Source: Novosphingobium lentum NBRC 107847 (GTDB lineage Bacteria; Pseudomonadota; Alphaproteobacteria; Sphingomonadales; Sphingomonadaceae). Taken from it: DNA of 64,000 nt. The notes beneath the pieces were generated by a model, which saw only the letters and a list, made by a program, of their open reading frames with translations, ran no database searches and was not told the origin of the DNA. How positions within the stretch are numbered: the first letter of the stretch is position 1; each line of letters opens with the position of its first letter. The stretch spans positions 1 through 64,000 of the forward strand of contig NZ_BCTW01000014.1 of assembly GCF_001590965.1 (NCBI RefSeq), given 5' to 3'. The translations under genes were made by a program, and so were the position numbers. Of the stretch, positions 477 to 24,401 are shown one piece after another.

Positions 477-563
477 TTCCCTTATTTCGCGTGGCTGAGC
501 TGGTTCTCGATCGTCGCCTATTTCATCCTCGCCGCCATCGCCCGGGAGCGGCGCGGTCAATAG
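477..563 (+). pseudogene. In-frame C-terminal continuation after a premature TAA
   Basis: Directly after TAA 474-476 the same frame reads 28 sense codons (Phe-Pro-Tyr-Phe-Ala-Trp-Leu-Ser-Trp...) to TAG 561-563. The segment contains a hydrophobic stretch of about 19 residues followed by a basic tail (ARERRGQ), the usual pattern of a last transmembrane helix. The preceding codon is TAT and the context is aromatic-rich, so one base change of a Tyr codon to TAA would explain it. Alternatives are stop-codon readthrough or a sequencing error. Confidence 0.5.
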
Positions 564-1774
564 CGTTCGAGCGTGACCGGCAATGCCTCGAAGCCGTGGA
601 CGAAGCTTTGTGCGACGCGGATCGGCTCGCCCTCGACATGCACGCGCAGGCGTCGGCTCTGCAGTTCCTCGATCAGGATACGCACCTGCAATTCGGCCAG
701 CCGCGCGCCGACGCAACGGTGCGCGCCGTAGCCGAACGCCAGATGGCGCCGGGCATTATCGCGCCTGAGGTCGAAGCGTTCGGCGTCGGCAAACACGCTT
801 TCGTCGCGGTTGGCCGAGATGTACCACAGCACGACTTTGTCCCCGGCGCGGATGGTCTGGCCTGCCAGCTCGACATCGCGCACCGCGTTGCGCCGCATGT
901 GCGCCAACGGGGTCTGCCAGCGGATCAATTCGGACACCGCGTTGTCGATCAGCCCGGGATCGGCTTCGAGCGCGGCGCGCTGGTCGGGGTATTGGTCCAG
1001 CGCAAACACCAGCCCGCTCATCGTGTTGCGCGTGGTGTCGTTGCCGCCGATCACCAGCAGCGTCAGCGCGCCGATGAATTCGTCCATGTCCATCGATCCG
1101 GTGACGTCTGAGCGGATCATCCGGCTGAGCAGGTCGGGTGCGGCATCACCAGCGATCCGTTCATCCCACAGCCGCTTGAAGTAATGCCCCATGTCGGCAA
1201 GATGGCCGAGGCGTTCGGCCTGCGCCGCTGGATCGTTGAACTGCTCGATGTTGCCCGCAACGTCGGACCAGAACGGCAGCAGCCGCCGATCGTCCCACGG
1301 AAAATCGAACAGCACGGCCAGCATCTGCGTGGTCAGTTCGATCGACACTTTATCGACCCAGTCGAAGCGTTCGCCCAGCGGCAGGGTATCGAGCAGCGCG
1401 CCGGCGCGGGCGCGGATATCGATCGACAGCCGGGCCATCTCGCTGGGCGTGAACGCGGGGGTGACGACCTTGCGCTGCGCCTGGTGTTCGGCCGCGTCCA
1501 TGCGGATGAAATTGGGAAAGCCCGTGCCCGGCGGGCGTTCGGCGATGGTGATGCTGGTTACGCCGCTGCGCCAGCTCGAGGAAAACACCTCGGGCTGCGC
1601 CTCGACCTCGACAATGGTCTGGTAGGTCGAAACCGACCAGTACGGCCCGAACTTGCTGTCTTCCTGCCGGTGGACCGGGGCGTTCTCGCGCAGCCAGGCG
1701 AACGGCTCGCGCCAGCCGTCCTCGGCATAAAGCTCCGCCCGGCTGACGTCGAGGTCGAGCGTCGCGGCGGTCAC
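557..1774 (-). CDS. Cytochrome P450
   Basis: A 405-residue soluble bacterial P450. It shows the I-helix oxygen-activation motif GGNDTT (residues 243-248), the K-helix ExxR pair (E282, R285) and the heme-binding loop FGYGAHRCVG with the thiolate ligand C354. The C-terminal FVHGFEALPV resembles the steroid/terpenoid CYP125/CYP142 group, but the substrate cannot be read from sequence. The GTG start at 1774 was chosen because it forms a GTGA overlap with the stop of the upstream DUF2834 gene, which implies translational coupling. Redox partners (ferredoxin and its reductase) are not encoded nearby. The gene converges on the membrane protein at the window edge. Confidence 0.9.
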   Translation of the reverse strand: MTAATLDLDVSRAELYAEDGWREPFAWLRENAPVHRQEDSKFGPYWSVSTYQTIVEVEAQPEVFSSSWRSGVTSITIAERPPGTGFPNFIRMDAAEHQAQRKVVTPAFTPSEMARLSIDIRARAGALLDTLPLGERFDWVDKVSIELTTQMLAVLFDFPWDDRRLLPFWSDVAGNIEQFNDPAAQAERLGHLADMGHYFKRLWDERIAGDAAPDLLSRMIRSDVTGSMDMDEFIGALTLLVIGGNDTTRNTMSGLVFALDQYPDQRAALEADPGLIDNAVSELIRWQTPLAHMRRNAVRDVELAGQTIRAGDKVVLWYISANRDESVFADAERFDLRRDNARRHLAFGYGAHRCVGARLAELQVRILIEELQSRRLRVHVEGEPIRVAQSFVHGFEALPVTLERY

Positions 1775-2255: not shown

Positions 2256-3200
2256 TCATGCAGGCATCCGCATTGCGGCACGCGCTGCCGCATAATCCTG
2301 CGCCAGCCAATCGATATAGTCGCCCGCCGGCTCCGCGCGGCGCACGGCACCGATGCCCTGCCCGGCGCTCCAGATTTCCTTCCACGCCCTGGCGTTGTCG
2401 CCACCGCCGTCGATGTTGATCGCCTTGCCTTCGGCCCGCTTGAGCTGCGCCGGATCAAGCCCGTTCTCGACCAGCGAGGGCCGCAGGAAATTGGCATCGA
2501 CCCCGGTGAAGCAGTTGGTGGTGACGATGTCGGCGGCGGTGCCTTCCACGATCATGCGGCGGAACCCCGGCTGGGTATTGGCTTCGTCGCTGGCGAGGAA
2601 CGGCGAACCGACATAGGCCAGATCGGCGCCCAGCACTTCGGCGGCGAGCACCGAGCGCCCGTTGGCGATGCACCCCGACAGCAGCAGCAGCCCATCCCAC
2701 CACGCCCGGATTTCCTGGCACAACGCGAACGGTGACAAATCGCCGGTGTGCCCCCCGGCGCCTGCGCCCACGCCGATGATCCCGTCGACGCCGATCTCGG
2801 CGCATTTGCGCGCGTGGCGGTCCTTGATCACGTCCTGGAACACCAGGCTGCCGTTGGCCTGCAGCCGCGCCACCAGATCGCGATTGGCGGCCAGCGCCAG
2901 CACGACGATCGGCACTTTGTGGCGCAACACCACGTCAAGGTCCGCCTCGAGCCGCGAATTGCTGGCGTGGGCGACGAGGTTGATCGCATACGGCGCGTCG
3001 CCCACGGCTTCCCCGATCCTTGCAATATCGGCGTCCAGCGCCGCGCTCGACCGCGGGTTGAGCGCGGGCATCGACCCGATGATCCCGGCGCGGCATTGCG
3101 CGATAACCAGATCGGCGGTCGATGCGATGAACATCGGCCCGGCCATGACCGGCAACCGCAGTTTGCTCTTCAACAGCGCCGCCAGCGCCCTGCCCTTCAT
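2256..3200 (-). CDS. Nitronate monooxygenase / 2-nitropropane dioxygenase-like flavoprotein
   Basis: A 314-residue TIM-barrel FMN enzyme of the NMO/2-nitropropane dioxygenase and enoyl-reductase family. Visible features are the N-terminal LPVMAGPMF strand, the VGAGAGGHTG phosphate-binding loop (about residues 164-173) and the LLLSGCIANGRSVLAAEVLGADLAYVG FMN-site region. Family members oxidise alkyl nitronates, but many in catabolic clusters have unknown CoA-linked roles. Start ATG 3200 is preceded by GGAGACAAC. It is transcribed divergently from the SDR/acyl-CoA dehydrogenase operon, so the 3201-3442 gap probably carries both promoters. Confidence 0.85.
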   Translation of the reverse strand: MKGRALAALLKSKLRLPVMAGPMFIASTADLVIAQCRAGIIGSMPALNPRSSAALDADIARIGEAVGDAPYAINLVAHASNSRLEADLDVVLRHKVPIVVLALAANRDLVARLQANGSLVFQDVIKDRHARKCAEIGVDGIIGVGAGAGGHTGDLSPFALCQEIRAWWDGLLLLSGCIANGRSVLAAEVLGADLAYVGSPFLASDEANTQPGFRRMIVEGTAADIVTTNCFTGVDANFLRPSLVENGLDPAQLKRAEGKAINIDGGGDNARAWKEIWSAGQGIGAVRRAEPAGDYIDWLAQDYAAARAAMRMPA

Positions 3201-3346
3201 GCGTTGTCTCCGGCACGGTTCGCAGATGCCTTCGGATCGCGCCGACGACGCGGTAGATACCCGCCCACCGTATTGATGCCGCGCTTCATCGATCACCCCT
3301 CCGTCGTGCACCTGGGCTGACGCCCGGGCATTCATCGATGCGATGC

Positions 3347-3382
3347 TTGACACGCCCCGGCGTTTTTGTAAACAGGTTCACA
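3347..3382 (+). promoter_or_regulatory. Putative sigma-70 promoter with overlapping TetR-type dyad
   Basis: A consensus -35 TTGACA (3347-3352) is followed after 16 nt by TAAACA (3369-3374) as a weak -10. Overlapping the -10 is the near-perfect 16-bp dyad TGTAAAC-AG-GTTCACA (3367-3382), whose AACnnGTT/AAACnnGTT core is typical of TetR-family acyl-CoA-responsive regulators such as PsrA or KstR. It lies 60 nt upstream of the SDR start and within the divergent intergenic region (3201-3442), so it could control both directions. No TetR gene is in the window. Confidence 0.45.
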
Positions 3383-3442
3383 ATTGCTCGCAAGCCGGCA
3401 ATGTATTTCCGCGGCACGGTGCCAGCGGTCTTTGGGGGCGGT

Positions 3443-4375
3443 ATGAACCAGAAGCGGGACCTGTTTCGCGATGATGCGCTGGACGGCAAGGTCGTGCTCG
3501 TCACCGGTGGTGGCGGCGGTCTCGGCAAGGAGATCGCGCACGCGCTCGCCGGTCGCAAGGCCCGGGTCCACATCTGCGGCCGCCGGTTGGCGCTGCTCGA
3601 GGAAACTGCCGCCGAAATTGCAAAAGCAACCGGCGGAGAGGTCTTTGCCCACGCCTGCGACATTCGCGATGCCGATGCGGTCGACGCGATGGTCGACACG
3701 ATCTGGCAGGACAAGCCGCTGACCGGCCTGGTCAACAATGCCGCCGCCAACTTCATCGCGCCGACCAAGGACCTGTCGGCGCGTGCCTTCCGGGCGGTGA
3801 CATCGACGGTGATGGACGGCACGTTCCACGCGACGCTGTCGTGCGGCAAGCGCTGGATCCGCGACGGCCTGCCGGGTTCGGTCGTGTCCAACCTCACCAC
3901 GTGGGTCTGGACCGGTTCGGCCTTCGTCGTGCCGTCGGCGATGGGCAAGGCCGCGGTCCACGCGATGACGATGAGCCTTGCCGCCGAATGGGGCGGCTAT
4001 GGCATCCGGCTCAACGCCACCGCACCGGGACCGTTTCCGACCGAAGGCGCGTGGGACAAGCTCAACCCGATCCCCGACACGGTATCGTCGGCAACCAGCG
4101 CCGCGACCGTGCCGATGCGCCGCTTCGGGCAGATGGACGAACTGACCAACCTGATTACTTTCCTGCTCTCCGACGCGTGCGATTATCTCACCGGGCAGAC
4201 TATCGCGATCGACGGCGGACAGCATCTCGCCGGACCGGGCACGTTCGCCGACCTCACCAATCTCACGCCCGAACAATGGCAGGCCGCGCGCGACAAGATC
4301 GCCGGTTCGGTGGCGAAGGAAAAGGCGCAGCGGCAAACGACCTCGCCTGCTGCCGACGGAGGATCCGCAGCATGA
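3443..4375 (+). CDS. SDR, 2,4-dienoyl-CoA reductase (DECR)-like
   Basis: A 310-residue short-chain dehydrogenase. The Rossmann motif TGGGGGLG is at 21-28 and an NNAAANF segment at 98-104. The classical catalytic Tyr of YxxxK is absent: the segment reads PSAMGKAAVHAM with S165 in the Tyr position and K169 retained. The same change, and the following SLAAEWGGYGIRLN...PGP sequence, occur in NADPH-dependent 2,4-dienoyl-CoA reductases, which protonate via other residues, so the protein is probably active on unsaturated acyl-CoA esters. ATG 3443 fits the domain start. Its TGA overlaps the next gene's ATG (ATGA at 4372). Confidence 0.82.
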   Translation: MNQKRDLFRDDALDGKVVLVTGGGGGLGKEIAHALAGRKARVHICGRRLALLEETAAEIAKATGGEVFAHACDIRDADAVDAMVDTIWQDKPLTGLVNNAAANFIAPTKDLSARAFRAVTSTVMDGTFHATLSCGKRWIRDGLPGSVVSNLTTWVWTGSAFVVPSAMGKAAVHAMTMSLAAEWGGYGIRLNATAPGPFPTEGAWDKLNPIPDTVSSATSAATVPMRRFGQMDELTNLITFLLSDACDYLTGQTIAIDGGQHLAGPGTFADLTNLTPEQWQAARDKIAGSVAKEKAQRQTTSPAADGGSAA

Positions 4376-5535
4376 TCGAACGCCAGCTGTTCAATGCCGA
4401 GCACGACATGTGGCGCGAAACCGTGCGCAAGTTCGTCGAAAAGGAAATCGTCCCGTTCCACGCCCAGTGGGAAAAGGACGGCATCGTCCCGCGCGAACTG
4501 TGGCTGAAGGCGGGCGAAGCAGGCATGCTTTGCTGCACCGTGCCCGAGGAATACGGCGGCCTGGGGCTCGATTACCTGTTCGACGTGGTGGTGTTCGAGG
4601 AGCTGTGGCGGGTGGGCGCCAGCGGCCCCGGCTTCCTGATCCACACCGACCTGGTCTCGACCTACATCCTCTCGTTCGGCACCGAGGAGCAGAAGCGCCA
4701 CTGGCTGCCGAAAATGGTCACGGGTGAGGCGATCGGCTCGCTCGGCATGACCGAACCGCACGCCGGCAGCGATCTCAAGGCCATCCGCACCCGCGCCGAG
4801 CGCGACGGCGATGATTTCGTCATCAACGGCCAGAAGGTGTTCATTTCCAACGGCCAGATGTGCGACGTGCTGGTGCTGGCCACCAAGACCGACAGCAGCG
4901 CCGGGGCCAAGGGCGTGACGCTGTTCCTGGTCGATGCCAGCCTGCCCGGGTTCAAGCGCGGCCAGAACCTCGACAAGCTGGGGATGAAGGCGCAGGATAC
5001 GTCCGAACTGTTCTTCGACAACTTGCGCGTGCCAGCCGGTGCGATGCTCGGGACCGAGGGCGGCGGCTTCCCGCTGATGATGACCAAGCTTTCGCAGGAA
5101 CGGCTGGCGCAGGCGATCCGTTCGGCCACCGTGACCGAGACGATCATCGAATGGACGGTCGATTACACCGCTGAACGCCGCGCGTTCGACCAGTCGATCG
5201 CCGATTTCCAGAACACCCAGTTCGTGCTCGCCGATCTGAAAGCGCGCAGCGTGATGGCGCGCGTGTTTACCGACAAGTGCATCGAACTGTTCATGGCGGG
5301 CAAGCTCGATCCGGTCGATGCCGCCATGGCCAAGATGACCACGTCCGAACTGCATTGCGAAACCGCCGACAAGTGCCTGCAGTTGTTCGGGGGCTGGGGC
5401 TATATGTGGGAATATCCGATCGCCCGCGCCTATGCCGACGCGCGCATCGTCAAGATCGCGGGCGGTTCGATCGAGGTGATGAAGACGATCATTTCTCGCG
5501 ACATGTTCAAGGGCCGGCTTGGCCGCACCCGGTGA
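4372..5535 (+). CDS. Acyl-CoA dehydrogenase (LCAD/IVD-like)
   Basis: A 387-residue FAD-dependent acyl-CoA dehydrogenase. It carries the FAD/substrate signature SLGMTEPHAGSD (123-134) and the C-terminal GGWGYMWEYPIARAYADARI. The position of the usual catalytic Glu near the C-terminus is Gly (IAGGS), but E260 in ETIIEWTVDY lies where long-chain and isovaleryl-CoA dehydrogenases keep theirs, so it is probably active. In this operon it could introduce the ring double bond of an alicyclic acyl-CoA (AliB/BadJ role); that assignment is from context. The ATG overlaps the SDR stop and the TGA overlaps a GTG of the regulator gene. Confidence 0.9.
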   Translation: MIERQLFNAEHDMWRETVRKFVEKEIVPFHAQWEKDGIVPRELWLKAGEAGMLCCTVPEEYGGLGLDYLFDVVVFEELWRVGASGPGFLIHTDLVSTYILSFGTEEQKRHWLPKMVTGEAIGSLGMTEPHAGSDLKAIRTRAERDGDDFVINGQKVFISNGQMCDVLVLATKTDSSAGAKGVTLFLVDASLPGFKRGQNLDKLGMKAQDTSELFFDNLRVPAGAMLGTEGGGFPLMMTKLSQERLAQAIRSATVTETIIEWTVDYTAERRAFDQSIADFQNTQFVLADLKARSVMARVFTDKCIELFMAGKLDPVDAAMAKMTTSELHCETADKCLQLFGGWGYMWEYPIARAYADARIVKIAGGSIEVMKTIISRDMFKGRLGRTR

Positions 5536-5578
5536 CGGTGCCCGTGGTTCCGCTTGCCTCCGACGCCGCAAAGTCCGA

Positions 5579-5599
5579 CCGGGAGGGATCGCCTCCCGG
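5579..5599 (+). promoter_or_regulatory. Perfect 8-bp hairpin/palindrome before the MarR start
   Basis: CCGGGAGG-GATCG-CCTCCCGG is a perfect inverted repeat. Its right arm runs into the GGAG (5598-5601) that serves GTG 5610. As DNA it could be an autoregulatory MarR operator; as RNA it would mask the ribosome-binding site. No U-tract follows, so it is not a terminator. Confidence 0.45.
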
Positions 5600-5609
5600 A
5601 GTATCGCCT

Positions 5610-6086
5610 GTGCAGAAGAACCTCGACGCCAACCTTCGTTTCGGATTCCTGATCCACGACGTTTCGCGCCTGCGCCGCATCGTCGTCGACCGGGCGCTGA
5701 AGCCGCTCGGCATCACCCGCTCGCAATGGTGGGTGCTGGCCTTCCTGTCGCGCCGCGACGGCATGACCCAGACCGCGCTCGCCGCCGACCTAGATCTGAC
5801 CAAGGTCGCGATCGGCGGGCTGATCGATCGCATGGAGACCGGTGGGTTCGTCGAACGCCGCGCCGATGAGCGCGATGCCCGTGCGCGCCGGGTCTACCTG
5901 ACCCGCGCCGGCAAGCAACTGGTCGCCACGATCCGCGAGAACGTCGATGTCGTCGAAACCGACATCCTCTCGGCGGTCAGCGAAAACGAGCTCGACGATG
6001 CCGCGCGCTCGCTCGTGAAGATCAAGGCGCGGTTGCTCGAAATCGTCGGCAACGATGCCGAAAGCGGCCAGGACATCGAAACCTGA
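5610..6086 (+). CDS. MarR family transcriptional regulator (BadR-like context)
   Basis: A winged-helix regulator of 158 residues from GTG 5610. The MarR fold is clear: an N-terminal dimerisation helix, the recognition region TQTALAADLDLTKVAIGGLIDRMETGGFVERR, then a wing with DERDARARRVYLT. The start is ambiguous: GTG 5610 has GGAG 9 nt upstream, while GTG 5532 (184 residues) forms a GTGA overlap with the acyl-CoA dehydrogenase stop. The first 26 residues of the longer form are Pro/Ser-rich and unlike the family. In Rhodopseudomonas palustris a MarR protein, BadR, controls cyclohexanecarboxylate genes next to badH/badI; the same arrangement here suggests an acyl-CoA-responsive repressor. Confidence 0.85.
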   Translation: MQKNLDANLRFGFLIHDVSRLRRIVVDRALKPLGITRSQWWVLAFLSRRDGMTQTALAADLDLTKVAIGGLIDRMETGGFVERRADERDARARRVYLTRAGKQLVATIRENVDVVETDILSAVSENELDDAARSLVKIKARLLEIVGNDAESGQDIET

Positions 6087-6115
6087 CCGCAGGTTCAATT
6101 GGGATGGAGGATTTG

Positions 6116-6874
6116 GTGCAGGGATTGGCAGGCAAGGTCGCGATCGTCACGGGCGGCGGACAGGGTATCGGGCGGGCACTGGTGCTGCGGCTGGCGGCGG
6201 AAGGCTGCAAGGTCGCGATCTTCGACCTCAGCACTGAAGCAGGTGCCGAAACCGCAAAGCTCGCGGGCGATGCCGTGGTCAGGACGTGGCAGGTCGACGT
6301 CAGCGATCTGGCCGGTGTGGAAAAGGCCGTGGGTGAAGTCGAGGCGGACCTCGGCCCGATCTGGGTGCTGGTCAACAACGCCGGGTGGGATCGCCCGCAG
6401 CCGTTCCTGAAGACCACCCCGGAATTCTGGGACAAGGTCATCGCCATCAACCTGACCGGCAACCTCAACACGCACTTCGCCGTGGCGGGCCGTATGGTCG
6501 CCAATGGCGGCGGGCGGATCATCAACATCGCGTCCGACGCGGCCAAGGTCGGCACCGCGATGGAAGCGGTCTATTCGGCATGCAAGGGCGGCCTGATCAG
6601 CTTCACCAAGTCGATCGCGCGCGAATTGGCGCGCAAGAACGTGCTTGCCAACTGCGTCTGCCCGGGACCGACCAACACCCCGATGATGGCCGAAGTGGCC
6701 GGCACCGGTCCGGACGCGGAAAAGTGGAAGGCCTCGCTCGAACGCGGCATCCCGCTGGGCCGCATGGGTGAGCCCGAGGATTATGCCGGGATCGTCGCGC
6801 TGCTCGCCTCGGACGATGGCAAGTACATCACCGGCCAGGCCATCTCGGTCTCCGGCGGAATGAACATGGTCTGA
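6116..6874 (+). CDS. badH: 2-hydroxycyclohexanecarboxyl-CoA dehydrogenase-like SDR
   Basis: A 252-residue classical SDR. It has the nucleotide-binding GGGQGIG (13-19), NNAG (87-90) and an intact catalytic set S140, Y153, K157 (YSACK). The stretches LVNNAGWD, INIASDAAKVG, AVYSACKGGL and ITGQAISVSGGMNMV follow R. palustris BadH closely as I remember it. BadH oxidises 2-hydroxycyclohexane-1-carboxyl-CoA to the 2-keto ester with NAD. GTG 6116 is preferred because GGAGG lies 5 nt upstream (6106-6110); the in-frame ATG 6104 has no ribosome-binding site. A BadI-like ring hydrolase lies one gene downstream, which supports the assignment. Confidence 0.82.
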   Translation: MQGLAGKVAIVTGGGQGIGRALVLRLAAEGCKVAIFDLSTEAGAETAKLAGDAVVRTWQVDVSDLAGVEKAVGEVEADLGPIWVLVNNAGWDRPQPFLKTTPEFWDKVIAINLTGNLNTHFAVAGRMVANGGGRIINIASDAAKVGTAMEAVYSACKGGLISFTKSIARELARKNVLANCVCPGPTNTPMMAEVAGTGPDAEKWKASLERGIPLGRMGEPEDYAGIVALLASDDGKYITGQAISVSGGMNMV

Positions 6875-6876
6875 GA

Positions 6877-7308
6877 GTGACGGACGGGCAGCAGCAGCAC
6901 CCCCCCATTGCCGGTGACTGGCAAGCGGGGGAGGTGACCGCCACCGGGCCTTGGACGGTCGGTCAACTGTCGATCGACTGGGCCACGCACCGCTATGCCC
7001 TGTGCATCGAGGAACGGCATTGCAACGCGACCGGCGTGATGAACGGTGGGGCCATGGCGACCTTCCTCGATGGCCAGGCGTTCGTGGTCATCAACGACAA
7101 GCTGCACGACTACCACCGGCCCACGATTTCGCTGAGCGTCGACTTGCTGGCCCCGACGCTGGTCGGCGATTGGCTGGTGGCCGAAGTCACCTTGGTCAAG
7201 ATCACGCGCAGCATGATCGTGACCCAGGCGCTGGCGAAAGTCGGCGACCGTGTCGTCGCCCGGTCCAATGCCATCTATAGCAATACCCAGAGAAAGGACG
7301 CGCCATGA
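6877..7308 (+). CDS. Hotdog-fold thioesterase (PaaI/4HBT family)
   Basis: A 143-residue hotdog protein. The central helix motif reads GVMNGGAMATFLDGQAF, in which Asn replaces the more usual His of the PaaI HGG motif; the Asp of FLD is kept. Members hydrolyse acyl- or aroyl-CoA thioesters and often recycle CoA from dead-end intermediates. GTG 6877 starts 2 nt after the SDR stop, and its TGA overlaps the next ATG (ATGA at 7305). Its likely role is CoA release within the ring-cleavage operon. Confidence 0.75.
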   Translation: MTDGQQQHPPIAGDWQAGEVTATGPWTVGQLSIDWATHRYALCIEERHCNATGVMNGGAMATFLDGQAFVVINDKLHDYHRPTISLSVDLLAPTLVGDWLVAEVTLVKITRSMIVTQALAKVGDRVVARSNAIYSNTQRKDAP

Positions 7309-8099
7309 GCGGCACCCCCCAGTTCGAAGACATCCTTTATGAAGTGCGCGGCCGCGCCGCGTGGATCATCATCAACCGCCCCAAGCTGTACAACGCGTTC
7401 CGCGCGCAGACGATCGAGGAACTGATCGCCGCGTTCAAGCTGGCGGCCGACGACAAGGGCGTATCGAGCGTCGTGCTGACCGGCGCAGGCGACAAGGCGT
7501 TCTGCACCGGCGGCGATCAAAGCGCCAAGGATGGCCAGTACGACGGACGCGGCATCGTCGGCCTGCCGATCGACGAGTTCCAGTCGGTCATCCGCGACAT
7601 TCCCAAGCCTGTCATCGCCCGCGTCAACGGCTTTGCCATCGGCGGCGGCAATGTCTTCGCGACGCTGTGCGATCTGACCATCGCGGCCGATACGGCCAAG
7701 TTCGGCCAGGTCGGTCCCAAGGTCGGCTCGGTCGATGCCGGCTGGGGTACCGCGTTCCTCGCCCGCCATGTGGGTGACAAGAAGGCGCGCGAGATCTGGT
7801 TCCTGAACCTGCAGTATTCGGCGCAGGAAGCGCTGGAAATGGGACTCGTCAACAAGGTCGTCCCGGCCGCCGAGCTCGATGCGGCGGTCGATGAATGGAC
7901 CGAAATGCTGGGTCAGCGCTCGCCCACGGCGATTGCCCTCGCCAAGCGCAGCTTCAATGCCGACAGCGACAACATTCGCGGCATTTCGATGCTGGCGCTC
8001 AATTCGGTGAAGCTGTTCTACGATACCGAGGAATCGAAGGAAGGCATGCGCGCCTTCCAGGAAAAGCGCGCGCCGGACTTCCACAAGTACGTCAAGTAA
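7305..8099 (+). CDS. badI: 2-ketocyclohexanecarboxyl-CoA hydrolase-like (crotonase/MenB subfamily)
   Basis: A 264-residue crotonase-fold protein. Its motifs are those of the MenB/BadI branch: FCTGGDQ (67-72), FAIGGGNV (110-117), GQVGPKVGSVDAGWGTAFLAR (S142 and D144 at the MenB Ser/Asp positions) and the C-terminal FYDTEESKEG with the family Tyr. The N-terminal QFEDILYEVRG and AWIIINRP also match BadI from memory. BadI adds water to 2-ketocyclohexane-1-carboxyl-CoA and opens the ring to pimeloyl-CoA. The start overlaps the thioesterase stop. A generic enoyl-CoA hydratase is the alternative, but the DQ and SVDAGWGT motifs argue against it. Confidence 0.83.
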   Translation: MSGTPQFEDILYEVRGRAAWIIINRPKLYNAFRAQTIEELIAAFKLAADDKGVSSVVLTGAGDKAFCTGGDQSAKDGQYDGRGIVGLPIDEFQSVIRDIPKPVIARVNGFAIGGGNVFATLCDLTIAADTAKFGQVGPKVGSVDAGWGTAFLARHVGDKKAREIWFLNLQYSAQEALEMGLVNKVVPAAELDAAVDEWTEMLGQRSPTAIALAKRSFNADSDNIRGISMLALNSVKLFYDTEESKEGMRAFQEKRAPDFHKYVK

Positions 8100-8103
8100 G
8101 CCC

Positions 8104-8156
8104 ATCCGGGCGCGGGGGACACGGGCGATGCACGCCCGGCCCCCTCGCGCCCGGAT
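8104..8156 (+). repeat. Long imperfect intercistronic hairpin
   Basis: Two 24-nt arms (8104-8127 and 8133-8156) pair around a 5-nt loop ATGCA: 11 bp at the base (ATCCGGGCGCG), 3 bp in the middle and 6 bp near the loop. It fills most of the 87-nt gap between the BadI-like gene and the hydratase gene. No T-run follows, so it looks like an RNA-stability or attenuation element rather than a terminator. Confidence 0.5.
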
Positions 8157-8186
8157 CGCCCGGCACATCCGCGTCGAGGACATCGC

Positions 8187-9479
8187 ATGACCCAAATCGA
8201 GCCCCCGGTGCTGCCGCAGCTCACGCAGTTCCGCGTCGAACCGCAGGCCAGTGGCCTCGTCCACCTCGTGTTCGATTGCCCCGATCGTTCGATGAACGTG
8301 TTTTCGAACAAGGCGATCCACGAACTGGGCGCGTTCGCCGAGTGGCTGCATGGCAGCGACGCGCGCGGCGTCGTGGTCCGGTCGGGCAAGGCCAGCGGGT
8401 TCTGCGCGGGCGCCGATCTTACCGAGCTGGGCGTGGCCTACGACATGATCGTCGCGGCTCCGCCTGCCGACCGCTTCGACATCGCCTTCAACCACTTTTT
8501 TCCGCTCAGCCACGCGCTGCGCCGGCTCGAAACCGCCGGCAAGCCGGTTGCCGCAGCGATTGCCGGGGTAGCGCTGGGCGGCGGCTGCGAGCTGGCACTG
8601 GCTTGTCACTATCGCGTGGTGACCAGCTCGCCACGCGCCATTATCGGCCTTCCCGAATGCGCGGTCGGACTGCTGCCGGGCGGCGGCGGCACCCAGCGCA
8701 TGCCGCGCCTCGTCGGGGTCGACCTCGGGCTCGACGTGCTGCTCAAGGGAACGAACCTGGATGGCACCGCCGCCGTCGCGGCGGGCTTGGCCGACGTCGT
8801 GGTCGAACCGGGCGAGGACGTCGCAGCCGCTGAAGCCTGGCTGTTGTCGGCCGCCGCGCACGCCCGCCAGCCGTGGGACGCGCCCGACGCGACGCCGCTG
8901 GCCCACGCCAGCTACGCCTCTTCGCTGCTGCGCGAACGCACGCGCGAGCTGGCGCGGATGCTGGGCCACGAACCGGCGCCGCTGGCCATTCTCGATTGTA
9001 TCGAATTCGGCCTGATGCAGCCGTTCGACGGGGCCATTCGTGCCGAAATGTCGGTGTTTGCGCGGCTGATCCAGCGGCCAGAGCCGCGCAACATGATCCG
9101 CACGATGTTCCTGGGTAAACAGGCCAGCGACAAGGCTCGGCGCAGCGGAGACGTTGCGCCGCAGGTCCAGGCTGCTGTGGACGCCGCAAGCGGATTGGTG
9201 CGCGAAGCAGCCGCCATCAGTCCGATCCTGGTGAGCGCGGGGTTCCTGCGCGGTACGGATCAGAGCGCGCCGGTCCAGCCTGCAGTCGCTGCAGATTACT
9301 GGTTCCGTTCGCATAGCGAGGCCGCAGCCGCCATGCGCACTTTGGCACAGCCACTCGCCGGGATCGTCGCGTCGCTGTCCGACGACGACCGTCTGCAGGT
9401 CGATTTCAAGGTGTGCGAGGCAGGGGTCATTCCGGCCTATCTCGGCGGCGTTTCGGGCCTGATTGCAGCCCTGACCTGA
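8187..9479 (+). CDS. Enoyl-CoA hydratase/isomerase, FadJ-N-like, without dehydrogenase domain
   Basis: A 430-residue protein. The first 200 or so residues are a crotonase domain with the oxyanion loop FCAGADL (72-78), GVALGGGCELALAC (E135) and LPECAVGLLPGGGGTQRMPRL (E157). Both catalytic Glu residues of true hydratases are therefore present. The sequence is closest to the N-terminal hydratase module of FadB/FadJ fusion proteins, but no 3-hydroxyacyl-CoA dehydrogenase Rossmann domain follows; the last 200 or so residues are helical and unassigned. It may supply the BadK step, hydrating cyclohex-1-ene-1-carboxyl-CoA. It is last in the operon. Confidence 0.8.
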   Translation: MTQIEPPVLPQLTQFRVEPQASGLVHLVFDCPDRSMNVFSNKAIHELGAFAEWLHGSDARGVVVRSGKASGFCAGADLTELGVAYDMIVAAPPADRFDIAFNHFFPLSHALRRLETAGKPVAAAIAGVALGGGCELALACHYRVVTSSPRAIIGLPECAVGLLPGGGGTQRMPRLVGVDLGLDVLLKGTNLDGTAAVAAGLADVVVEPGEDVAAAEAWLLSAAAHARQPWDAPDATPLAHASYASSLLRERTRELARMLGHEPAPLAILDCIEFGLMQPFDGAIRAEMSVFARLIQRPEPRNMIRTMFLGKQASDKARRSGDVAPQVQAAVDAASGLVREAAAISPILVSAGFLRGTDQSAPVQPAVAADYWFRSHSEAAAAMRTLAQPLAGIVASLSDDDRLQVDFKVCEAGVIPAYLGGVSGLIAALT

Positions 9480-9671
9480 CAGCGAGCCACGCCCGGTCGC
9501 TACAGAAATTGGTCCCGATCAGCGCATGCGACCGGTTCGCTGGTCGCGTGTCCGGGCTTCGGTCCGGCGCCGTCGATGGCGCGGACGAAGCGATCGCAGA
9601 CCTTGCCTTGGTCTAAGGCGACGGGGTAACCGGTTTGATCGAAACCAACGACGTGATGATCGGGAAATGAC
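9480..9671. other. Intergenic gap after the catabolic operon
   Basis: This stretch lies between the FadJ-like gene and the ModE-type gene. I see no gene, no strong terminator and no clear promoter in it. Confidence 0.3.
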
Positions 9672-10052
9672 ATGCGTGTCGGGCCACTGAAGCTCAAGAT
9701 CCAGCTGATCTGCGGCGACGAGATCGCCATGGGACCGGGCAAGGCGGACGTACTCGAAGCCATCGACCGCGAAGGCTCGATCTCGGCGGCGGGGCGGGCG
9801 CTGGGCATGAGCTATCGCCGGACCTGGCTGCTGGTCGATGAGATGAACCGGTGCTTTTCCGAAAAGGTCGTGGAGACGCATCAGGGCGGCCGCCACGATC
9901 GCGGCGCCGAATTGACCGAGCCCGGCCGCGCTGTGCTTGCTGCTTACCGGGCACTGGAAAAACAGGCGGGCCGGATTGCCCGCAGCCCGGAGAATTCGCA
10001 ACTGGCGGCCGCCCTGCGCGACCAGCCGCTTCCCGCCAAATCCGACGTGTGA
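9672..10052 (+). CDS. ModE-type N-terminal HTH regulator without molybdate-binding domain
   Basis: A 126-residue winged-HTH protein of the LysR/ModE N-terminal type: ADVLEAIDREGSISAAGRALGMSYRRTWLLVDEMN, then a wing with GGRHDRGAELTEPGRAVL. It stops after the HTH and has none of the C-terminal Mop/TOBE domains by which E. coli ModE binds molybdate. It must either sense metal differently, need a partner, or act constitutively. It sits immediately upstream of a TonB-dependent receptor, and the intervening DNA holds a dyad with an ATATA...TATAT core like ModE operators. Confidence 0.8.
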   Translation: MRVGPLKLKIQLICGDEIAMGPGKADVLEAIDREGSISAAGRALGMSYRRTWLLVDEMNRCFSEKVVETHQGGRHDRGAELTEPGRAVLAAYRALEKQAGRIARSPENSQLAAALRDQPLPAKSDV

Positions 10053-10082
10053 TTGCGCGCAAGCCGTTTCCCAGCCTTTCCT

Positions 10083-10130
10083 CGCATGCCCTTATCTATA
10101 TACGATGAGATATATCGAATCGGGCATGCG
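10083..10130. promoter_or_regulatory. 48-bp nested dyad, candidate ModE-type operator
   Basis: The outer arms CGCATGCCC (10083-10091) and GGGCATGCG (10122-10130) are perfect inverted repeats. About the same centre, the inner arms TC-N-ATATA (10095-10102) and TATAT-N-GA (10111-10118) also pair. TATAT-type half-sites separated by about one helical turn are the hallmark of ModE boxes. It lies 16 nt before the receptor ATG, so binding would affect transcription or translation of the receptor. Confidence 0.5.
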
Positions 10131-10145
10131 GGGAAGTTCGGACTC

Positions 10146-12563
10146 ATGCATCACAACTTTATCCCAGCGGCGACGGTCGGATTTGCGCTGGCTCTGGCGG
10201 TGTCCGCAGTCGCATCTCCCGCCCGCGCCGGAACGGCTGGGAACGAGATCGAACCCGGCGCAGCGCCTGCGGCCGATGCTGGCGATGCTGGCGACGGCGC
10301 CATCGTGATCGTCACCGCGCGCCGCCGGGCAGAGGATGCGCAGACCGTCCCGGCGGCGCTGTCGGTGGTCGGCGGGGCGCTGCTCGACCGGTCGTACACG
10401 GTGAACACCCAGCAGCTGTCGCAGCTCGTGCCCGCGCTCAACTACAGTTCGGCCAACCCGCGCAACACTGCCTTCACCATCCGTGGATTGGGCAGCAGCG
10501 TGGTCGCGGTGAGCCAGGCCAACGACGGGCTGGAACCCGGCGTCGGGTTCTATGTCGATCAGGTCTATCACGCGCGGCCCGCCACCGCCGCGTTCGACTT
10601 TGCCGATCTCGATCAGGTCGAGGTGCTGCGCGGGCCGCAGGGCACGTTGTTCGGCAAGAACAGCACCGCCGGCGCGATCAACATCACCACCCGCGCGCCC
10701 ACGTTCACGCCCGAGGCGAGCCAGGAATTCTCCTACGGCAGCAACAACTTCGCGCAGGCCAGGGTTGCGGCGTCGGGGCCGCTGGTGGGTGACACTCTGG
10801 CGGGCCGCATCTCGGGCGTGGTCACCCGCCGCGATGGGGTGATCGACAACGTCCGCACCGGCCAGGCCAACAACCTGATCGGCAACCAGGCGGTGCGCGG
10901 CCAGTTGCTGTTCAAGCCCTCGGCCACCTTCCAGCTCAAGCTGTCGGCCGATTTCACCAACTTCCAGAGCGACTGCTGCACGCAAGTGTTCCTGCGCGTG
11001 GCGCCCACGCTCAAGTCGGCGGCGCGCCAGTATCCGGCGTTGGCCGCGCATTTCGGCTACGTGCCGCCCAGCCTCAATCCTTATGACCGGGTGACCGACA
11101 TCGATGCGCCGATCGGGGTCAAGACCAGCGAGGGCGGCGTGGCCGCAATCGCCGACTGGACCATCGGCGGCGCGACGCTGACTTCGGTCAGCGCGTGGCG
11201 ATTCTGGAACTGGGACGCCGCGAACGACCGCGATTACACCGGGCTGCCGATCCAGACCACGCAGCACATCCCCTCGCGGCAGGACCAGTACAGCCAGGAA
11301 CTGCGCATCGCCTCGAACGGCAGCGGTCCGTTCACGTATGTCGGCGGGCTCTACTTCTTCCACCAGCGCGTCACCGGGCGGCCGATCTCGATCTACGGGG
11401 CCGACGCGGCCTATTGGCTGATCGGGCCGACTACCGGCACCGCGCCCAACACCATCACCGTGCCCGCCAACCTGCTGGATGGCTACGGCACCGATGGCCA
11501 TACCGATTTCCGCTCGAGCAGCTACGCCGCGTTCGGCGAGGTCAACTGGCGCCCGCTGTCGCGCCTGACACTCACCGGCGGCCTGCGCTATACTTACGAA
11601 CGCAAGAGCGGCACATACGACACGTTCGTGTTCGGCGGGCCGGTGGTGAAGGACGCGCGGCTGATCGCGGCGCAACTGTCCATCCTGCGCGGCCAGACTT
11701 ATGCGGCCAAAGTCAACGGCGGCGCGCTCACCGGGCGCGCCAACATCGCCTACCAGCTGACCGACGCGGTGATGGGCTATGCCAGCTTCGCGCGCGGCGC
11801 CAAGTCGGGCGGCATCAACATGTCGGGCCTGCCACTCAACGATGCCAACCAGCCCGCGCTGGGCACGGCGGTGGTCCGCCCCGAACAGAACACCGCCTAC
11901 GAGGCAGGGCTCAAGACCAGCCTGTTCGATCGGCGGCTGACCTTCAACATCGACGGGTTCTACACCCGCGTCACCGATTTCCAGACCAACGTCACCGACA
12001 CCGGGGCGGCGGTCGCGCTGCGCACCTACCTGGCCAACATCCCCAAGGTCACCGTGCGCGGGTTCGAGGCCGATGCCACCGCCGCGATCACACGCCGGTT
12101 CTCGCTGCGCGCATCGGTCGCCTATGCCGATGGTCGTTACGATTCCTACCCCGCCGGGCCGTGCCCGATCGAGGCGATCGGCAGCGGCACGGCAGCCTGC
12201 AACCTCAGCGGACGCGCACTGCCCAGCCTGCCCAAGTGGTCGATGACGCTGGGCAGTGATTACGAACAACCCGTCGCCGCATTGCGCGGCAGCATGCTGC
12301 TCCACGCCGATCTCAACAGCCGCACCAGGCAATTCGGCGACCCCACCGGCTCGGCCTACACCGTGATCGGCGGCTACACCATGGTCAACGGCAGCATCGG
12401 CTATCGCTCGGACAAAGGCTGGGAACTGGCGGTGTTCGCGCGCAACCTGTTCGACCGCGACTATATCCAGAACGTGACGATCCAGGCGGGCAATTCGGGC
12501 CTGATCCTGGGCACACCAAGCGATCCGCGCGTGGTCGGCGTGACGTTCCGCGCGCGGGAGTGA
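10146..12563 (+). CDS. TonB-dependent outer membrane receptor
   Basis: An 805-residue TonB-dependent receptor. It has a signal peptide of about 28 residues (ending SPARA), a TonB-box-like IVIVTA at 53-58, a plug domain with FTIRGLGSS and VEVLRGPQGTLFGKNSTAGAINI, and a 22-strand-type beta-barrel ending VGVTFRARE with a C-terminal amphipathic strand. Such receptors import scarce ligands such as metal chelates, carbohydrates or aromatics using TonB-ExbBD. The ligand is unknown. The preceding ModE-type regulator and TATAT dyad suggest an oxyanion (molybdate/tungstate) or a metallophore. ATG 10146 was chosen because the signal peptide begins there. Confidence 0.92.
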   Translation: MHHNFIPAATVGFALALAVSAVASPARAGTAGNEIEPGAAPAADAGDAGDGAIVIVTARRRAEDAQTVPAALSVVGGALLDRSYTVNTQQLSQLVPALNYSSANPRNTAFTIRGLGSSVVAVSQANDGLEPGVGFYVDQVYHARPATAAFDFADLDQVEVLRGPQGTLFGKNSTAGAINITTRAPTFTPEASQEFSYGSNNFAQARVAASGPLVGDTLAGRISGVVTRRDGVIDNVRTGQANNLIGNQAVRGQLLFKPSATFQLKLSADFTNFQSDCCTQVFLRVAPTLKSAARQYPALAAHFGYVPPSLNPYDRVTDIDAPIGVKTSEGGVAAIADWTIGGATLTSVSAWRFWNWDAANDRDYTGLPIQTTQHIPSRQDQYSQELRIASNGSGPFTYVGGLYFFHQRVTGRPISIYGADAAYWLIGPTTGTAPNTITVPANLLDGYGTDGHTDFRSSSYAAFGEVNWRPLSRLTLTGGLRYTYERKSGTYDTFVFGGPVVKDARLIAAQLSILRGQTYAAKVNGGALTGRANIAYQLTDAVMGYASFARGAKSGGINMSGLPLNDANQPALGTAVVRPEQNTAYEAGLKTSLFDRRLTFNIDGFYTRVTDFQTNVTDTGAAVALRTYLANIPKVTVRGFEADATAAITRRFSLRASVAYADGRYDSYPAGPCPIEAIGSGTAACNLSGRALPSLPKWSMTLGSDYEQPVAALRGSMLLHADLNSRTRQFGDPTGSAYTVIGGYTMVNGSIGYRSDKGWELAVFARNLFDRDYIQNVTIQAGNSGLILGTPSDPRVVGVTFRARE

Positions 12564-24038: not shown

Positions 24039-24401
24039 GTGGCAAAAAGAATATTGGTTGTCGAGGACAACGACCTCAATCGCAAATTGTTCTGCGATCT
24101 GCTGAGGGCCAACGGCTTTGCGGTGGAGCCCGTGGCCGACGGGCGCGAGGCGATCGACCGCGCGCGCAGCTTTGTCCCCAACCTGGTGATCATGGACATC
24201 CAGCTGCCCAATGTCTCGGGGCTGGAACTGATCGAGGCGCTGAAGGCCGACAAGGACTTGCGCGCGATCCCGGTGCTGGCGGTAACCGCCTATGCCGGCA
24301 AGGGCGACGAGGAACGCATCCGCGACGCCGGCGCCGAGGGTTACCTGGCCAAGCCGGTGTCGATCGGCCCGTTCATGGAAGCGGTGCGCAAGCTGGTGTG
24401 A
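24039..24401 (+). CDS. divK: DivK-like single-domain response regulator
   Basis: A 120-residue CheY-fold receiver with no output domain. The acidic pocket is VVEDND, the phosphoacceptor Asp is D53 in VIMDIQLPNVSGLELI, and the conserved Thr and Lys are in AVTAYAGKGDEERIRDAGAEGYLAKPVS. AGKGDEERIR and YLAKPVS are typical of DivK, the cell-cycle regulator acting through DivJ/PleC and DivL. GTG 24039 follows a GGGG-rich ribosome-binding region. Confidence 0.87.
   Translation: MAKRILVVEDNDLNRKLFCDLLRANGFAVEPVADGREAIDRARSFVPNLVIMDIQLPNVSGLELIEALKADKDLRAIPVLAVTAYAGKGDEERIRDAGAEGYLAKPVSIGPFMEAVRKLV

Follow-up and report, generated by a model that had tools for sequence, protein, structure and literature searches.

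The closest described systems for CoA-dependent opening of alicyclic rings are the bad-ali clusters of R. palustris and Aromatoleum sp. CIB and, among sphingomonads, BadI-like genes published for estrogen degradation (PMC9795900, PMC7793797 and PMC12507874). Clusters of bad-ali type have been described in many other bacteria, aerobes included (PMC9795900), so that the route is not restricted to a phototroph such as R. palustris, for which the original prediction for the DNA discussed here cites it. The BadR operator CAAN4TTG is reported for most of those in Gram-negative hosts (PMC9795900). The stretch under study (the window) opens contig C14 of Novosphingobium lentum NBRC 107847 and is 64 kb long; the genome of 4.41 Mb is 99.55% complete. 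Seven genes of its plus strand, all with open frames, span positions 3443–9479, and one of them codes for a putative ring-opening hydrolase of the BadI branch. Judging from its sequence, this hydrolase belongs to a distinct sister clade that arises within BadI and is separate from MenB (dihydroxynaphthoyl-CoA synthase). The whole operon seems rather likely to serve the CoA-dependent opening of the ring of some alicyclic carboxylic acid, though not of plain cyclohexanecarboxylate. In the open-licence literature nothing was found on clusters of this kind; the topics registered for sphingomonads were estrogen, bile salts and a metabolic model for tetralin, and for Bradyrhizobium there was nothing relevant.

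The hydrolase gene occupies positions 7305–8099 (+). Its product scored 407.2 bits on the BadI model TIGR03210 (406.8 in the genome scan), below the cut-off of 467.6, and 314.4 bits on the MenB model TIGR01929, below the cut-off of 342.7; the next-best protein of the same genome reached only 163 bits on the BadI model. The closest relatives of the gene in the contig scan came from Novosphingobium and other sphingomonads, the nearest being 97% identical, and the best 80 of 145 relatives were taken for comparison of the loci. On TIGR03210, 18 proteins from 17 relatives' genomes fell into two groups, seven with 472–528 bits and 11 with 400–418 bits, and a metagenome bin of Gemmobacter (G009) carries one protein of each. 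All 11 lower-scoring proteins belong to one clade, for which the name BadI2 was coined in this analysis. In a 73-row tree with MenB as outgroup it comprised 48 rows (47 different) with support of 100/100, joined BadI of the same genus (L128) at 98/89 and then, with moderate support (84/88), BadI of Nitrobacteraceae. Crotonase hits of the window's own genome (L001–L008, L089–L096), identical or contained duplicates (L039, L040, L055 and L080 among them) and ten near copies from beta-proteobacteria dropped by hand (L066, L072, L074, L076–L079, L082–L084) were omitted from this tree, the window protein itself being retained. The predicted BadH/BadI-type ring-cleavage operon is supported by phylogeny in that its hydrolase lies inside the BadI radiation, outside MenB and not among ordinary hydratases.

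Ser142, Asp144 and Tyr239, residues with a catalytic role in BadI and MenB, are invariant in the wider alignment (84/84 rows). The residues beside the conserved Asp distinguish the clade: position 147 is Trp in all 51 BadI2 rows, including the window, and Tyr or Phe in 33/33 other BadI rows, while position 145 is Ala or Gly in 50 of the 51 (one has Pro) and Pro in all 33. The 51 rows evidently include one locus twice (L053 = L127), and eight of the 33 others were scored on the BadI model, the rest being assigned to BadI from their positions in the trees. With its sub-threshold scores, these fixed residues, and the partners and (in sphingomonads) the palindrome described below, BadI2 can be used in sequence searches as a testable sign of a second way of opening rings, which would probably act on substituted alicyclic compounds. 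The clade is rare: at ≥83% identity it was found in three of 396 sampled genomes of the order, the window's own included. Two metagenome bins contain more than one copy (L022, L028 and L032 in one, L009 and L011 in the other), which reflects either duplication or mixed strains. A further protein of the MenB/BadI branch, 51% identical to that of the window, is encoded at 9388–10197 of locus L138 (G066, another family of the order), near a ligase-like and another crotonase gene; it sits on a long branch outside both BadI2 and the other BadI rows.

The first gene of the operon, 3443–4375 (+), codes for SDR2, a short-chain dehydrogenase/reductase (SDR) resembling 2,4-dienoyl-CoA reductases (top NCBIfam match NF005811, 221.6 bits at a cut-off of 318). 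It is followed on the same strand by genes for an acyl-CoA dehydrogenase (ACAD, 4372–5535) and a MarR-family regulator (about 5610–6086, start codon uncertain), both assigned, like SDR2, by NCBIfam and Pfam, then by a BadH-like SDR (6104–6874; TIGR03206, 295.7 bits) with the presumed role of a 2-hydroxycycloalkane-carboxyl-CoA dehydrogenase, a hot-dog (4HBT) thioesterase (6877–7308; PF03061), BadI2 and an enoyl-CoA hydratase of FadB/FadJ type (8187–9479). All operon genes named in the original prediction are present, open and co-directional, and the triad of the BadH-like SDR (Ser144, Tyr157, Lys161) proved intact on checking the sequence. The operon, placed at 4372–9479, starts in fact one gene earlier, with SDR2, and its genes overlap by 4 bp only at the SDR2/ACAD (4372–4375) and thioesterase/BadI2 (7305–7308) junctions; about 74 bp separate ACAD from marR, and 87 bp lie between BadI2 and the hydratase gene. 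Scans of the region 3150–9700 for sigma-70 promoters and terminators gave nothing above chance, and solved structures provided no substrate clue for the BadH-like SDR. The grouping is not accidental, since orthologues of ACAD, MarR, BadH and BadI stand together in all 17 sphingomonad-type loci with full flanks.

The hydratase deserves separate consideration. Among 430 residues the match to FadJ/FadB in NCBIfam covers the first ~330, Pfam recognises only ECH domains and no GxGxxG motif is present in the sequence. Its AlphaFold model (pLDDT 92, 26 sequences) was aligned by VIA-align with FadB-type alpha subunits of 706–729 residues at Z 31.2–32.9 in the top 20 rows, where residues 8-11 to 430 of the model run over 1-2 to 679-698 of the chain with 380–392 aligned, the skipped chain residues not being printed. 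Going by this alignment, the two ends of a FadB-type subunit appear to be retained in the protein, while roughly the NAD-binding middle is lacking. With the alpha subunit of the FadB/FadJ trifunctional enzyme it shares the overall fold and the hydratase domain, including E135 and E157 (invariant in 26/26 sequences), which we take to be equivalents of both hydratase glutamates, but it is far shorter and lacks the Pfam dehydrogenase domain. A hydratase of this sort would suit a route where oxidation of a ring alcohol is left to the BadH-like SDR.

To see what surrounds BadI2 in other genomes, we compared 17 sphingomonad-type loci with full flanks (including L034, from a proteobacterium) and 18 Bradyrhizobium-type loci, using identity thresholds set by us for each gene. 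In the former ACAD, MarR, BadH and BadI2 occur in 17/17, a CoA hydrolase/transferase gene and the hydratase in 16/17 each, an HMG-CoA synthase-like (HMGS-like)/DUF35 gene and a lipid-transfer thiolase in 15/17 each, BKACE (beta-keto-acid cleavage), CitE-like, MaoC and SDR2 in 14/17 each and a CoA ligase in 10/17. In the latter all 18 loci have ACAD with a second ACAD gene, BadH, BadI2, the hydratase and a CitE-like gene, while MaoC was registered in 17 and BKACE in 14. Fuller clusters are carried, for example, by Novosphingobium colocasiae and N. resinovorum. BadI2 marks a cluster of its own in sphingomonads, Bradyrhizobium and Paracoccaceae, mostly with BKACE, MaoC and CitE-like genes, and the window holds a reduced version of it: the 87-bp gap at 8100–8186 (+) is the place where most relatives have the CoA hydrolase/transferase and BKACE and some also a CoA ligase. 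With 544 and 541 bits, BKACE of L041 and BKACE of L018 exceed the threshold of 430 for NF053538, the 3,5-dioxohexanoate:acetyl-CoA acetone transferase. BadI2 clusters give a genomic context to this subfamily as named by NCBIfam. The best matches of the L041 MaoC and CitE-like proteins are RipB and RipC of itaconate metabolism, far below the cut-offs (143 of 340 and 149 of 375).

The 18-bp palindrome TTGTAAACAGGTTCACAA, a candidate operator at 3366–3383, ends 59 bp before SDR2. It was spotted on reading the intergenic DNA and is the sole match in the window at ≤2 mismatches; as the pattern was derived from this very site, relatives and not the window provide the test. Upstream of ACAD (within 1.13 kb) the palindrome was found at ≤3 mismatches in 23/23 sphingomonad-type loci and at ≤2 in 18 of them (the window is counted, L017 is left out because the region is absent from its data), compared with 14 of 380 equal-length segments elsewhere in the same loci. 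The 300 bp before ACAD in Bradyrhizobium-type loci contained nothing better than four mismatches (18/18). A MarR orthologue occurs in 17/17 of the full-flank sphingomonad-type loci and a close one in 0/18 of the Bradyrhizobium type; the window MarR is also 51% identical to that beside BadI2 of Gemmobacter. Probably MarR, encoded within the operon, represses it at the palindrome. A stricter pattern was scanned in 26 genomes, 16 of sphingomonad type with BadI2 and ten others (two of them Bradyrhizobium with BadI2): perfect sites were registered in 9/16 vs 0/10, and sites with ≤1 mismatch in 13/16 vs 3/10.

At ≤2 mismatches the window's own genome contains the palindrome in three places (the window, C5:190676-190693 and C12:127058-127075), while the reversed control gave none. 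The C5 copy, the best after that of the window, lies 30 bp before an open CoA hydrolase/transferase gene (189389–190645, minus strand). This gene shares 72% identity with its counterpart in the closest relative's cluster and in a quick tree nests among in-cluster genes. In 28 relatives this gene follows BadI2, and no palindrome better than five mismatches was detected just before it. The C5 gene with its shared palindrome looks like a regulon that survived the break-up of the gene cluster. The divergent gene beyond the C5 palindrome codes for a class III CoA-transferase with succinate-glutarate CoA-transferase as best match (506 of 750). Two BKACE genes of the genome also exceed the cut-off of NF053538 (C15:126683-127573 and C7:195854-196747; 537 and 514 bits). 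One of the two stands alone among unrelated genes and the other in a beta-oxidation cluster. The C15 gene is probably a paralogue, since it has no palindrome within the surrounding 10.9 kb and a quick tree sets it apart from the in-cluster genes of sphingomonads. A MaoC/CitE-like pair at C20:5994-7465 (L140), 54% and 52% identical to the pair of BadI2 clusters, possibly serves missing steps. The C12 site (L161, position 9558; two mismatches) has genes for a ferredoxin reductase and an aldehyde dehydrogenase on one side and for a TonB receptor on the other, with a membrane protein without Pfam hits encoded nearby; it is possible that these are upper-pathway and uptake genes of the same regulon, which we consider only as a lead.

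Following the protein families, we infer the sequence of reactions as follows. The ACAD, similar to long-chain acyl-CoA dehydrogenase (LCAD), would make the ring α,β-unsaturated, the FadB-type hydratase without its dehydrogenase part would add water, the BadH-like SDR would oxidise the resulting 2-hydroxyl, and BadI2 would hydrolyse the 2-oxocycloalkane-carboxyl-CoA to an open-chain dicarboxyl mono-CoA. SDR2 and the thioesterase may handle substituents or stalled thioesters. In the window species the divergent operon is missing, and the CoA hydrolase/transferase gene, absent from the locus too, is now found on C5 behind a copy of the palindrome.

One rival reading equates the operon with the bad-ali pathway, in which cyclohexanecarboxyl-CoA is converted to pimeloyl-CoA through the roles of AliB, BadK, BadH and BadI; the original prediction had assumed this by a step-by-step mapping from R. 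palustris. The two systems have in common a BadI-branch hydrolase with Ser, Asp and Tyr, a BadH-like SDR, an ACAD, a hydratase and a MarR regulator (PMC9795900). The top NCBIfam hits of two operon proteins are BadI and BadH, BadI2 arose within BadI, and the CoA ligases of L041 (a Bradyrhizobium cluster) and L034 are AliA-like (701 and 631 bits, cut-off 792). Yet the operon proteins stay below the cut-offs for BadI, BadH and AliB. The ACAD reached 219 bits on the AliB model TIGR03207 (cut-off 575.35), is 29–31% identical to two AliB proteins and has human long-chain acyl-CoA dehydrogenase as its nearest solved relative; this score and low identity rule out that it is AliB. The hydratase looks FadB/FadJ-like, in a genome that has 30 ECH_1 matches. 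Across the whole genome no protein passed the models of AliA (TIGR03208, best 383 of 792.3), AliB (best 222) or PimC (best 356 of 624), so that neither the mapping nor a route up to pimeloyl-CoA finds support. The models are able to detect bad-ali proteins in this genus, since a compact set in a control genome, G345, passes with BadI (468.2) and AliB (592.9). Its AliA (774.6) and BadH (371.7) fell below their own cut-offs, which are evidently strict, and the failure of the window's BadH-like SDR (295.7 vs 431.2) is for this reason a weak feature.

Regulation differs as well. The window MarR is encoded inside the operon and not divergently, is only 25–30% identical over partial length to two MarR proteins standing beside or divergent from canonical clusters, and is associated with another palindrome; CAAN4TTG matched the window only at 24251, 58661 and 63529, with none within 3–10 kb. 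Finally, the Gemmobacter bin combines a BadI2 cluster (L052) with a separate bad-ali-like one that has a divergent MarR (L157). The absence of parts specific to plain cyclohexanecarboxylate together with this coexistence makes such a substrate unlikely, and we judge the bad-ali pathway unlikely as an explanation of the operon. Genomes with BadI-like hits are easily taken for degraders of cyclohexanecarboxylate or naphthenic acids, as happened here. The genes found in relatives, which add BKACE, CoA-hydrolase, MaoC and CitE-like genes, agree with the suggestion of a variant that acts on substituted alicyclic acids.

Opening of a ring in a steroid or another polycyclic terpenoid, like that ascribed to the BadI-like gene of the Novosphingobium tardaugens edc cluster, is a quite unlikely alternative. 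The edc and oec estrogen clusters contain a sphingomonad BadI-like hydrolase (BadH in the review's table), a P450 and an ACAD (PMC7793797, PMC12507874), and OpA of edc, as described, has a P450, a chsH2-like hydratase, a lipid-transfer protein, HMG-CoA synthase, the BadI-like protein and an ACAD (PMC7793797). The HMG-CoA synthase and lipid-transfer thiolase of edc/oec recur in the fuller sphingomonad BadI2 clusters as the HMGS-like/DUF35 and lipid-transfer-type genes, accompanied by MaoC, and TonB receptors are encoded close to the operon of the window as well as to a weak site of the palindrome. In this comparison edc was represented by its published description. In contrast with these clusters, the neighbours scanned (~0.5–12.6 kb; the genome was not searched for these enzymes) included no recognisable ring-A (extradiol) dioxygenase and no 2-oxoacid oxidoreductase, and the P450 of the window is CYP153-like and is not found beside relatives' clusters. 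Besides, a close HMGS-like or lipid-transfer thiolase orthologue occurs in 0/18 Bradyrhizobium-type loci within the available flanks. In Paracoccaceae L052 has both genes, while L054 and L056 end on that side and are uninformative.

Several observations weigh against the assumption that the window operon is a working ring-opening module with an operator of its own. The CoA hydrolase, BKACE, CoA ligase and divergent operon of relatives are missing at this locus, the operon itself contains no CoA ligase, and the copy could for these reasons be losing function. The thioesterase was detected in only 10/17 relatives, SDRs and FadB-type hydratases are broad families, and the presence of two kinds of cluster in the Gemmobacter bin could be a binning artefact. 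As for the palindrome, five of the 23 loci have it with three mismatches, L010 and L057 are poor matches, and near copies are present among the 23 (L010/L057, L030/L031, L034/L055). At ≤1 mismatch the pattern matched 29 times in 16 of the 26 genomes, but its reversed form also did so 13 times, in 10 genomes, so that lone one-mismatch sites cannot serve as evidence.

In its extreme form this doubt means that the operon is a decaying remnant of a larger BadI2 cluster which supports no growth any longer. In favour of this are the genes missing at the locus, to which the HMGS-like/DUF35 homologue can be added (none was found in the whole genome by a search that had no positive control of its own). 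We consider it very unlikely, since all seven frames are open, BadI2 retains its conserved residues at 97% identity to the nearest relative, the palindrome of the window has no mismatch, the CoA hydrolase gene on C5 has an open frame and a palindrome of its own 30 bp upstream, and two BKACE homologues are available elsewhere in the genome. That the hydrolase is simply MenB or an ordinary enoyl-CoA hydratase is practically excluded by the tree and the profile models (407 bits for BadI vs 314 for MenB, other proteins of the genome being far behind), even if it shares with MenB the crotonase branch and the conserved motif, and MenB structures come closest to it in sequence among those solved (best 305.6 bits).

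Returning to the operon as a ring-opening module for an acid other than cyclohexanecarboxylate, the nature of the ring may be approached through the additional genes of relatives. BKACE, CoA hydrolase and the MaoC/CitE-like pair point to an oxygenated or methyl-branched ring, and this is the weakest link of our argument. Cleavage of 3,5-dioxohexanoate has been shown for a BKACE of clostridial phloroglucinol degradation (PMC10470551). A more detailed proposal can be put forward tentatively, although as a whole we regard it as rather doubtful: BadI2 may open the ring in an aerobic pathway, so far undescribed, whose substrates are alicyclic acids with oxygen functions or methyl branches, for instance terpenoid-derived ones. 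The ring would have a second oxygen function, so that BadI2 might free a beta-keto acid, which BKACE of 3,5-dioxohexanoate type would split with acetyl-CoA to give acetoacetate. The CoA hydrolase/transferase would shift CoA, the MaoC/CitE-like pair, as distant relatives of RipB and RipC, might remove the methyl-branched end, and the window species would have dispersed these genes, keeping them in one regulon through the 18-bp palindrome.

The divergent neighbours of the operon were also considered. A P450 of CYP153 type (557–1774, minus strand; nearest solved relative CYP153D17, 506 bits) is encoded together with a DUF2834 membrane protein and a flavoprotein in a divergent gene set. The original prediction had associated it with the operon; a part in the pathway is not supported, as the protein is CYP153-like and none of the 17 full-flank relatives has an orthologue next to the cluster. 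The flavoprotein, of the nitronate-monooxygenase/FabK family (2256–3194, minus strand; PF03060), gave no substrate clue from solved structures and may resemble the steroid enzyme IpdC. Its orthologue (77–82% identity) is located beside the cluster in four of the 17 relatives.

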